A model generated the notes under the pieces. The model had not been told where the DNA came from. It worked only from the letters and a program-made list of their open reading frames with translations, and made no database searches. The position numbers and the translations under genes were made by a program. From NCBI RefSeq assembly GCF_016065055.1, contig NZ_CP065856.1, forward strand, positions 3,967,836-4,031,835: a DNA stretch of 64,000 nucleotides, written 5' to 3'. Positions 4,612-7,346 of the stretch are shown here, piece by piece (the stretch's first letter is position 1; each line of letters starts with the position of its first letter). This DNA is from Halosimplex litoreum (lineage in GTDB: Archaea > Halobacteriota > Halobacteria > Halobacteriales > Haloarculaceae).

Positions 4612-5679
4612 ATGGATATACAGGAGTACATGGACGACTTCACGGCGCGCGACTGGCCCCAGGCGGACGAGGGGACGGTTCGGTTCGCGATGGTCGGACT
4701 CGGCTGGTGGACGATGGAGTTCGCCATCCCCGCAACCGAGGTCCTCGACCACCTGGAGACGACCGTCGTCGTCTCCTCGACGACCGAGAAGGCCGAAGGC
4801 GTCGCCGACGAGCACGAGTCCATCGAGCACGGACTCACCTACGACGAGTTCCAGAACGGTGAGGCGACCGACGCCTACGACGCCGTCTACATCGCCACGC
4901 CCAACGCCCTGCACCTCCCCTACGTGGAGGCGGCCGCCGAGTTCGACAAGGACGTCCTCTGCGAGAAACCCCTCGAAGCCAGCACCGAGCGCGCCGAGAA
5001 GCTCGTCGAGGCCGCCGAAGGCGTGACCCTGGGCGTCGAGTACCGGATGCACGTCCAGCCCGCCGTCCGCACGATGCGCGAGCTCGTCGACGCCGGCTTC
5101 ATCGGCGACGTGGCGATGGTCCACGGCAACATGTCTCAGCCCCTGCTGGACATCAACGACAACTACGACCAGTGGCGGCTCGACCCCGACATGGCCGGCC
5201 CCGGCGCCTCGGTCACCGACCTCGGCGTCTACTCCATCAACACGACGCGGTTCGTCATCGACGAGGACCCCGTCGCCGTCACCGCGACGGACTGGTCCGG
5301 TCACGAGGCCTTCGACGACGTACCGGACGAGCGGGCCGCCTTCACCGTCGAGTTCCCCGACGGCGTCGTCGCCGCCTGCACGGCCAGCCAGAACACTCAG
5401 GAGACCAGCAACCTCCGCATCATCGGCACCGAGGGCGAGCTTCTGCTCGAAGACGCCTTCCTCTCCGGCGACCGCGAGCTGACGATCACCCGCGGCGAGA
5501 CCACCATCACCACCGAGTTCGACGGCATCGAGGAGACCCGTCGCTCGCTGGAGTACTTCGGCGACCACCTGCTGACCGGCACGGACATCCACGGCGACGG
5601 CGAGCACGGCATCGTCGACCAGCGCGCCATCGACGCCGTCTACGAGGCCGCCGAGTCCGGCGAACGCGTCGAGCTGTAG
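4612..5679 (+). CDS. xacA: D-xylose 1-dehydrogenase (NADP+), Gfo/Idh/MocA family
   Basis: A 355-residue Gfo/Idh/MocA oxidoreductase. It has an N-terminal Rossmann fold (RFAMVGLGWW, residues 24-33), the EKP motif at residues 118-120, and a C-terminal alpha/beta substrate domain. The N terminus MDIQEYMDDFTARDW and phrases such as DAYDAVYIATPNALHLPYVE match what I know of the haloarchaeal xylose dehydrogenase (XacA of Haloferax, Gfo6 of Haloarcula). The enzyme oxidises D-xylose to xylonolactone in the cytoplasm, the first step of the oxidative path to 2-oxoglutarate. The xylonate dehydratase gene xacD lies 3.5 kb away on the other strand. A pyrimidine-rich stretch just after the stop (5690-5720) could end transcription. 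Confidence 0.88.
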   Translation: MDIQEYMDDFTARDWPQADEGTVRFAMVGLGWWTMEFAIPATEVLDHLETTVVVSSTTEKAEGVADEHESIEHGLTYDEFQNGEATDAYDAVYIATPNALHLPYVEAAAEFDKDVLCEKPLEASTERAEKLVEAAEGVTLGVEYRMHVQPAVRTMRELVDAGFIGDVAMVHGNMSQPLLDINDNYDQWRLDPDMAGPGASVTDLGVYSINTTRFVIDEDPVAVTATDWSGHEAFDDVPDERAAFTVEFPDGVVAACTASQNTQETSNLRIIGTEGELLLEDAFLSGDRELTITRGETTITTEFDGIEETRRSLEYFGDHLLTGTDIHGDGEHGIVDQRAIDAVYEAAESGERVEL

Positions 5680-5795
5680 CGGCCACTCGAACCGTTCTTT
5701 CTGCGCCCGTTCTTTCGTTGCGGACGCTCAGTGCAGTCTGAGGTTGTTGCATTTGGGGTAGCGGTGCGGTTGCGGTGCTGTGCGGTCGGCGCGTG

Positions 5796-5836
5796 CTGTC
5801 GAGCGTGCCCGCCTCGTGGCGGGCCGCTCGAAACAG
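5796..5836. repeat. Long imperfect inverted repeat (hairpin 1)
   Basis: CTGT, CGAGCG and GCCCGCC (5796-5813) pair with GGCGGGC, CGCTCG and ACAG (5818-5836) around a TCGT loop. The only interruptions are a one-base bulge at 5806 and two extra A residues on the right arm. This gives about 17 paired bases, well beyond a simple terminator stem. Confidence 0.6.
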
Positions 5837-5974
5837 TCGCGCGAGGGATGAGAAGCGCAGCCCGCGAGCATCGCAAGAGGCTGGGGAGGTGTGAGGCCGT
5901 CTGCGGTTGCTGTTGTGGTCGCGGTGCGGTCCTGGTGGACTGAAAGGGCGAGGCGCGCTCGCGCCGGTAGTCGT

Positions 5975-6029
5975 CTGAGCGGGCACTATCCGCGCGGGCT
6001 GTGCGGAGAGCGCGGATATCCCGTCTCAG
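5975..6029. repeat. Long imperfect inverted repeat (hairpin 2)
   Basis: Outer arms CTGAG-CGGG (5975-5983) and CCCG-T-CTCAG (6020-6029) pair with one bulged base. Inside them TATCCGCGC (5987-5995) pairs perfectly with GCGCGGATA (6010-6018) around a 14-base loop. The two-part stem separated by a small internal loop looks more like a folded RNA or a mobile-repeat core than a terminator. Confidence 0.6.
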
Positions 6030-6034
6030 CGACC

Positions 6035-6118
6035 GCGAGCGCGGCGAGGGCTTTCATCGCTTGCTGTTCTCTGCGGCCGAGACGGCAGCTAGCGAGCGCG
6101 GCGAGGGCGTTCATCGCT
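6035..6118. repeat. 27-base direct repeat, two copies
   Basis: Copies at 6035-6061 and 6092-6118 begin GCGAGCGCGGCGAGGGC and end TTCATCGCT, differing at one base (T or G at position 18). The offset is 57 bases, a multiple of three, but the frames crossing them do not look like protein. Confidence 0.65.
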
Positions 6119-6291
6119 CACCGTCGACTGCGGTCGCTGTGGTCCGCGTTTCTTTCACGAGACAATTTCTTGGAACTCGCGCTCAACGAGCACGCATACT
6201 GAGCGGACGCGTCTTCCGAGGCTGTCGAACGCGTAGCGGCGCCACACGAATAGCCGAGACGAACGCGATAACAACAGTTCGAAGCAGGAGT

Positions 6292-6320
6292 GGGGCGACC
6301 GGGTGGAGGGCGGTCGCCCC
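6292..6320. repeat. Perfect 10-bp stem-loop (hairpin 3)
   Basis: GGGGCGACCG (6292-6301) and CGGTCGCCCC (6311-6320) are exact inverted repeats around a 9-base purine-rich loop. There is no T-run after it on either strand, so a classical terminator is unlikely. Confidence 0.6.
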
Positions 6321-6513
6321 CGTGTCAGAGGCACAGGTGGATCGGTTGGCGGGCGATGCGACGGTGGCGCAGTCGGAGGGCGGCGTGGGGAGGGCCGAAG
6401 CGTCAGCGGGTGGGGACCTGACAGGGCGACGCGGGACCCGTCGCACCCACCGAACTGCGCGCATCTACTGGTAGCCGGGACGGGTATGTAATTTCTATCT
6501 CGGTACCATCTGT

Positions 6514-6605: not shown

Positions 6606-7346
6606 TCAGAGCTTGTGGCGGAAGGCGTGGAGGACGTTCTGGCCGGTGTCGGTCAGGCGGATCTGTTTCTGTCGGCCGACGCGCTCGACTTCGATGTAGC
6701 CGTCGTCGACGAGCGGGTCGACGATGTTGGCGTTGAGCAGTGCGAACTTCGCCTTGTCGTTGGCGGGGTCGGCGTCGGCGATAAAGGACAGGGCTTCCGA
6801 CTCGGCGTGTTCGATCAGGTCGGACTTCTTGGCGGTGTAGCTGTCGCTGTTGCGCTCTTCGAGGTAGGCGAGGACGGCGACCTGGTCGCGGGAGACCGCT
6901 TCGATGGGGTAAGAGGGAAGCACCACGTCGTCGCGCATGCCCCGCGTTCGCGGGTTCTCCTCGAGGTCGGGGACGTGTTCCTCGGCGCGGACGTAGTAGG
7001 CGGTTGCCTCGGTAGCCATGCAGGCGATGGCGCTGCCGATGGCGGCGAGCTTGCCGCCGCTGGAGACGTTGACGCGGACCACGTCCTGCTCGTGGGCGGC
7101 GGCGACCGTCGTGACGACCGCGAGCACGTCGTAGAGGTCCGAGAGGTTCGTCTCGCGGAAGCGGATGGTCCGGCCGTCGTCCTCGAGTTCCTCGACGAGC
7201 GCCTCCTGGTAGGGAGTCAGCGGGGTGTGTTCCCCGTCGGCGGCGAGGAGGTAGACGGTGTCCGCGTCGTGTTTGCGAAGGGGGCGGAGGATCCGGTCGT
7301 GCTCGTATCCGAGCGGCACGACGTGGACTTCGTCGATGGTTCGCAT
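6606..7346 (-). CDS. CARF-like winged-helix transcriptional regulator (HFX_2341/DUF6293 family)
   Basis: A 246-residue cytoplasmic protein. Residues 1-125 look like the HFX_2341 N-terminal domain: VHVVPLGYEHDRILRPL, an alternating beta/alpha pattern, and a VNVSSGGKLAAI loop near 92-103 that resembles the ligand loop of CARF (CRISPR-associated Rossmann fold) domains. Residues 150-246 form a winged helix (DQVAVLAYLEER, KSDLIEH, LVDDGYIEVERVGRQKQIRLTDTGQ). CARF-HTH proteins such as Csa3 sense cyclic oligonucleotides; whether this one does is inference, and no CRISPR genes lie in the window. ATG 7346 was chosen because upstream residues are Arg/Pro-rich. The divergent neighbour starts 119 bases away. 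Confidence 0.75.
   Translation of the reverse strand: MRTIDEVHVVPLGYEHDRILRPLRKHDADTVYLLAADGEHTPLTPYQEALVEELEDDGRTIRFRETNLSDLYDVLAVVTTVAAAHEQDVVRVNVSSGGKLAAIGSAIACMATEATAYYVRAEEHVPDLEENPRTRGMRDDVVLPSYPIEAVSRDQVAVLAYLEERNSDSYTAKKSDLIEHAESEALSFIADADPANDKAKFALLNANIVDPLVDDGYIEVERVGRQKQIRLTDTGQNVLHAFRHKL

Follow-up and report, generated by a model that had tools for sequence, protein, structure and literature searches.

Between gfo6 and a convergent gene for a winged-helix protein, the 64,000-nt stretch of the 4.16-Mb Halosimplex chromosome analysed here (the window) carries a block, positions 5680–6480, with three strong hairpins, which raises the question of whether they belong to one element, whether that element recurs, and whether it is mobile DNA or a structured RNA. 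A sequence-only reading had taken the block for a single unit encoding no plausible protein. All three hairpins are real, and no gene is called within the block. The first (5796–5836) is the core of a longer stem (~5789–5842) in the 5′ domain of a dispersed repeat, here called element A; the second (5975–6029) is the inner part of the larger helix system of its 3′ domain; and the third is a perfect 10-bp stem, GGGGCGACCG/CGGTCGCCCC. The single unit itself does not hold, because no BLAST copy of the recurring element extends past ~6202 and hairpin 3 lies in a syntenic feature, here called feature B, that is present also in congeners without A. The block is two unrelated features, element A with hairpins 1 and 2, and feature B with hairpin 3 (Table 1). 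The adjoining gene had been called a CARF-like regulator; its product has the HFX_2341_N and DUF6293_C domains, but its likeness to Csa3 is weak (21 bits; cut-off 60), and the predicted CARF/Csa3 relationship is fair but distant. There is no evident functional tie between this gene and A, the neighbours of which differ at every site.

Table 1. Coordinates in the window of element A, feature B and the flanking genes
Feature	Position	Strand	Basis or remark
D-xylose 1-dehydrogenase Gfo6 (gfo6), upstream neighbour	4618..5679	+	520.8 bits, cut-off 350; context, outside A
Element A, long form of the dispersed repeat	5727..6206	+	BLAST copies in own genome ~5720–6202; ends compared in 20 copies
Element A, ends			imperfect inverted motifs CTCAGTGCAG (left) ... 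ATACTGAGCG (right)
Element A, 5′ domain	5788..5889	+	long hairpin, then GCGAGGGA, variable hairpin, GGCTGGGGAGG
Element A, variable linker	5890..5934	+	from sequence
Element A, 3′ domain (model R1)	5935..6056	+	covariation, tandem G·A, genome-wide model matches
Element A, 3′ tail, two ~57-bp tandem units	6035..6136	+	repeat family D2
Element A, conserved 3′ tail, T-rich stretch GTTTCTTTCAC and right inverted end	6137..6206	+	common to other long copies
Feature B, separate structured intergenic element containing hairpin 3	6284..6480	+	same site in six other Halosimplex genomes
Hairpin 3, 10-bp stem, 5′ hairpin of feature B	6293..6321	+	sequence
22-nt core of feature B	6389..6410	+	identical to core of a short RNA-like haloarchaeal locus
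HFX_2341_N + DUF6293_C winged-helix protein, convergent neighbour	6606..7346	-	context, outside A

Feature B keeps its site in the six other genomes with or without A, and the stem of hairpin 3 differs by species (for example GGCGCGACC/GGTCGCGCC in H. aquaticum). Support for its fold is weak, with double changes in 8 of 56 pairs across five aligned sequences versus 5 of 44 on the reverse strand. B shares its 22-nt core, letter for letter, with the core of a short locus that nearly every haloarchaeal genome searched contains (89 of 97 with any match, in most cases to the 22-nt core), in which a TATA-like box is followed by TGACGCTTCG-CTTGGAGGGC-CGAAGCGTCA, GCGGGGACCAATTCAGGGCGGCAAGCG, a GC-rich hairpin and often a T-run. 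Examples (G000:C1:3564377, which is L269, together with L089–L111 and L270–L280) share a near-invariant ~46-nt core, the loop CUUGGAGGGC, a promoter-like box and a terminator-like hairpin; the four short loci searched against Rfam gave no match. The locus looks like a universal haloarchaeal sRNA. The conserved sRNAs of H. volcanii include H225.2R, hts10 and htsf_359 (PMC3956466), and the locus may be one of these three.

The earlier suspicion, voiced without a check, that 5850–6050 recurs is right, and the recurring sequence is element A. BLAST of 5680–6480 against its own genome returned the block itself and ~40 other places, 67–91% identical to the window copy. A covariance model of the 3′ domain built from a 35-sequence alignment (R1) gave 63 matches there, namely 62 copies and one antisense match of a palindromic copy. 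R1 also matched seven Halosimplex congeners (96, 83, 58, 48, 35, 31 and 16 matches) and genomes of other genera (39, 20, 12, 11, 5 and 3), counts of which a few may be antisense matches of palindromic copies, and it gave zero matches in four further genomes. Among 65 loci outside Halosimplex, R1 matched 51 places; bacterial loci retrieved through the 16-nt motif used as bait gave no R1 match, and in a phylum-wide sample under stricter filters the matches were confined to the same order. The bait motif occurs in genera that include Halorussus, Haloparvum, Halolamina, Halonotius, Halovenus, Halomicrococcus, Haloarcula, Natronomonas, Haladaptatus and Halobacterium. The 5′ domain was found in Halosimplex, Haloparvum, Halorussus and a few others, and the tail units also in Haloparvum, Halorussus and others; elsewhere it is often the 3′ domain that occurs by itself, at times in head-to-head inverted pairs. 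At five such loci in other genera the paired domains lie tens to a few hundred bp apart, and some pairs enclose a GGTTGGGGAG-containing centre.

Five haloarchaeal plasmids carry partial matches to A. A phage origin was rejected, as 50,697 phage records held no match. Against Rfam 15 the block gave no covariance-model match at the gathering threshold, and two sub-threshold hits at a relaxed E-value. Full-text searches of openly available journal papers on dispersed repeats and conserved sRNAs of haloarchaea, the motif, Halosimplex and comparable mobile structured RNAs found no description of A. Element A is a real, unannotated, widespread and previously undescribed family, and with up to ~100 copies per genome, in many genera and outside Rfam, it makes up a substantial unannotated part of haloarchaeal genomes.

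The copies share one plan, comprising a 5′ domain, a variable linker, a 3′ domain and a tail of one to ~six 57-bp units. Long copies are extended on the 5′ side, have a conserved tail on the 3′ side and end in imperfect inverted motifs of ~8–10 nt (GTTCAGTACAG / GTTCRGTWCG), which are missing from core-only copies. Some copies carry additional hairpins, always at set positions in the loops, and the same double hairpin (CGTGGCGGCGTAGCCGCCACGG...GGCGGTCGGCGGAGCCGACCGCC) stands at one loop position in several copies (six loci). The ~57-bp tail units repeat the 3′ strand of the outer helices, and their number, two in the window copy and up to ~6 in others, is a likely strain-typing marker. Units are near-identical within a copy and different between copies (seven loci), which indicates local expansion. 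Long A copies are often preceded, 100–200 bp upstream, by another recurrent intergenic module (seven loci), in which GGCAAAAACATGGGTGAAAAAG, GAACCGCG and CGGATGCTCAGTA follow one another with a hairpin of varying sequence after each of the first two.

The core of A folds at -154.6 kcal/mol (z -3.5 against dinucleotide shuffles), and its reverse strand folds well too (z -5.3), as near-palindromic DNA would, which leaves room for a role as DNA. The 3′ domain is formed by four helices, UGAAAG/CUUUCA, CGCGCUCGCG/CGCGAGCGCG, CUGAGCGGG/CCCGCUCAG and UAUCCGCGC/GCGCGGAUA, and contains a CGAG/CGAG tandem G·A motif that is invariant in 35 of 35 sequences; the linker segment GUCUGC could pair with the GUGGAC that opens this domain. 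Stem sequences of the 5′ domain are swapped wholesale between copies, and GGCGCG, GCGAGGGA and GGYTGGGGAGG stay constant across 67 copies, a constancy that is partly by construction, as these motifs were the search criteria. Single folds of the 5′ domain have a mean z of -1.8 and their reverse complements are at least as stable, so that folding energy by itself says little there.

In the 35 sequences of the 3′ domain, double changes occur in 16 of 34 pairs, against 5.8 +/- 1.4 in shuffled alignments (0 of 500 shuffles) and 2–5 when the pairing partner is slid, and 93% of cells are paired, against 28–48% in the slid controls. In other genera, in an alignment fitted to R1, 31 of the 34 pairs covary (score 0.290 versus 0.082 +/- 0.006). 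As the loci were retrieved with the 16-nt bait, one side of the outermost helix, its 5′ strand, is fixed from the outset, and helices 2–4 carry the weight of this result. Among mismatches in the 3′ domain, G·A and A·G outnumber C·T and T·C (37 versus 8), and G·U outnumbers A·C (26 versus 9). The excess of G·A over C·T and the invariant tandem G·A identify the + strand as the folding strand, a polarity that does not separate RNA from single-stranded DNA. The shape of element A is clearly kept by selection, and the copies appear to form one structured family, with a single consensus fold backed by covariation. The copies might instead be inert, decaying MITE insertions, with covariation an artefact of palindromes and shared ancestry, which would suit the dispersal, the inverted ends and the insertion polymorphism described below. 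We consider this extremely improbable, given that the covariation stands well above both shuffled and slid controls and recurs in other genera, that stems are exchanged wholesale with the loops fixed, and that helix 4 switches between GC/CG and G·A/A·G only as a pair. Two of the checks proposed in the sequence-only reading, BLASTn and covariance modelling, yielded further copies, in the own genome and in other haloarchaea, and compensatory changes far above the controls. That reading had offered two possibilities, a dispersed element and a structured-RNA family; the dispersed family of 62 copies with compensatory changes stands, and its folded strand may be RNA or single-stranded DNA.

The genomic setting bears on what a conserved fold might do. 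With genes called from codon usage, the caller being trained on the window, 62 of 62 copies are strictly intergenic and none overlaps a called gene, and protein coding was rejected on that ground. The gaps that hold them are convergent in 19 cases, tandem in 33, divergent in 9 and undetermined in 1. A cis-acting 3′-end module (terminator, processing or mRNA stability), comparable to REP/BIME and spread by selection at gene ends, would fit the ratio of convergent to divergent gaps, the several core-only copies that begin 10–50 bp past a stop codon and the T-rich 3′ tail of long copies. However, about 40% of the flanks are gene starts, there is no orientation preference relative to genes (the upstream gene is co-directional in 37 of 62 cases and the downstream gene convergent in 35 of 61), and A is far bigger and internally more conserved than a terminator requires. 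The bias to gene 3′ ends is only mild and argues against a 3′-UTR function tied to particular genes; we judge the 3′-end module unlikely.

No TTTAWD-type (TATA-like) box lies within 130 nt upstream of any of 48 A copies, whereas one is found near the expected place at 17 of 19 loci of a control haloarchaeal sRNA. A therefore probably works either within read-through transcripts or as single-stranded DNA in folded form; if A is transcribed, then probably by read-through. A family of stand-alone, trans-acting RNA genes, such as a ribozyme or a protein-binding RNA, would account for a large conserved fold with invariant unpaired motifs across genera, but the lack of a promoter-like box, the 62 copies with differing neighbours and the several genomes with none make it decidedly unlikely.

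Element A shows insertion polymorphism. Orthologous gaps are empty in some species, for instance at the window site and at three other loci, as confirmed with R1; in H. aquaticum the window-site gap is without A. In several other Halosimplex (four loci) the gap between gfo6 and the regulator holds other inserts in place of A, some of them probably protein-coding, and it looks like a hotspot of exchange. A cassette boundary CTCAGTAC...GTACTGAG shared with the protein genes at this site was considered and rejected; among loci of the own genome, A alone carries the exact motif of the 5′ end, so that the resembling ends found in H. pelagicum and H. carlsbadense are more plausibly what is left of A. 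Target-site duplication was not detected, the words shared across the two flanks being no longer than in mismatched flank pairs.

Where two genomes have A at the same site, the sites persist and the sequences appear to be replaced. In ten comparisons at seven sites, with anchor flanks typically 81–98% identical, the orientation relative to the flanks is the same in all, which indicates inherited sites. Over the whole core, however, the shared-site partner is the closest own-genome copy in only 2 of 10 comparisons and no closer than a random copy in the other 8, with a median rank of 28 of 57, which points to replacement. The simplest explanation of these ten comparisons, a small sample, would be ectopic gene conversion.

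Several candidate drivers of movement were discarded. The reverse transcriptase family PF00078, the only such family searched, is absent from 14 of 14 genomes, with control genomes positive, and group II or other RVT_1 retro-mobility, SINE-like included, was rejected on that ground. No protein family recurs beside the copies at the 62 sites, where the neighbours are ordinary, unrelated genes, and an autonomous partner gene was likewise rejected. Y1 transposase (PF01797) does not track copy number, being absent from genomes with 35, 39 and 20 copies and present in two with none, and for want of this co-occurrence IS200/605 Y1 mobilisation was set aside. These results also weigh on a reading by analogy, in which A would be folded single-stranded DNA and a transposase, integrase or recombinase would act on its folded + strand, so that only copies that fold can move. 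The ends of IS200/IS605 and the attC sites of integrons are precedents, and mobility, imperfect inverted ends, palindromic folding on both strands, the missing promoter and tandem G·A pairs, which are stable in DNA as well, all agree with it. Yet the ends are the least conserved part of A, core-only copies exist, Y1 transposases do not follow copy number and no partner gene stands beside A; we leave this possibility a minor but appreciable share of our confidence.

In sum, A combines the behaviour of a transposase-free mobile repeat with the shape of a structured RNA, and its mechanism and product we infer as follows. The reading that we prefer, with confidence about evenly balanced, is that A, a high-copy repeat of Halobacteria, moves non-autonomously, that its folded + strand is selected, that its copies overwrite one another, and that it is carried in read-through RNA. 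Selection would hold the + strand to a large fold of two domains with a tail of tandem repeats that varies, and copies would spread and overwrite one another as DNA, by a trans-acting transposition system together with ectopic gene conversion. Having no recognisable promoter of its own, A would ride in read-through transcripts of adjacent genes; there its folded strand may bind a protein or the ribosome, or be processed, tied to no one gene. Selection on the folded strand, not on the DNA ends, would account for the internal loops being more constant than any other part. A bolder proposal, which we regard as doubtful, would make A the first example to be described from a class of archaeal RNA elements that are large, structured and mobile. 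Their intergenic sites and orientation would be fixed and their sequences continually exchanged, a population of folded RNAs being kept by in-place cassette replacement.

Among known systems, HEARO and IscB omega-RNAs are large, structured RNA-like elements with many copies per genome, most without a protein. Element A is likewise large, structured and present in many copies, but has no recurring nuclease gene and no Rfam match at gathering. The REP/BIME, ERIC and bcr repeats of bacteria are dispersed intergenic stem-loops with module shuffling, mostly shorter and simpler, whereas A has conserved internal loops and a wide distribution in Halobacteria. MITEs have terminal repeats that match a transposon and often a target duplication; in A no duplication was found. 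PATEs and other IS200-IS605 derivatives are, like A, non-coding, folded and dispersed in haloarchaea, but PATEs have near-terminal palindromes and no inverted ends, whereas A has inverted end motifs and a copy number that does not follow Y1.

Further comparisons come from Haloquadratum. In its 'SwitchRepeats' and deletion-coupled insertions, different repeats or unrelated DNA occupy the exact same position in two strains (PMC3119063), much as one A copy appears to give way to another at shared sites and genes stand at the window site in other Halosimplex species. In Haloquadratum, however, this is a difference between two strains, whereas A copies are members of one structured family with constant orientation; that they appear to be replaced while site and orientation persist makes 'switch repeats' and deletion-coupled insertions directly testable in culturable Halosimplex. 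The small mobile repeats (SMRs) of Haloquadratum walsbyi, the A-type of which targets PATE/IS605 elements, resemble element A in their haloarchaeal dispersal without a transposase, the lack of a detected target-site duplication and their inverted ends, which in A are imperfect and confined to the long copies (Dyall-Smith et al. 2011, PMC3119063). The ends of SMRs are unrelated to known transposons, and within one type identity commonly exceeds 95% (PMC3119063). Copies of A, by contrast, are only ~67–91% alike (67–91% to the window copy), have a covarying ~270-nt fold and tandem tails, lie between ordinary genes and, at shared sites, appear to be replaced in place. On account of this lower identity we do not class A as an SMR; the SMRs are nonetheless its closest known kind.
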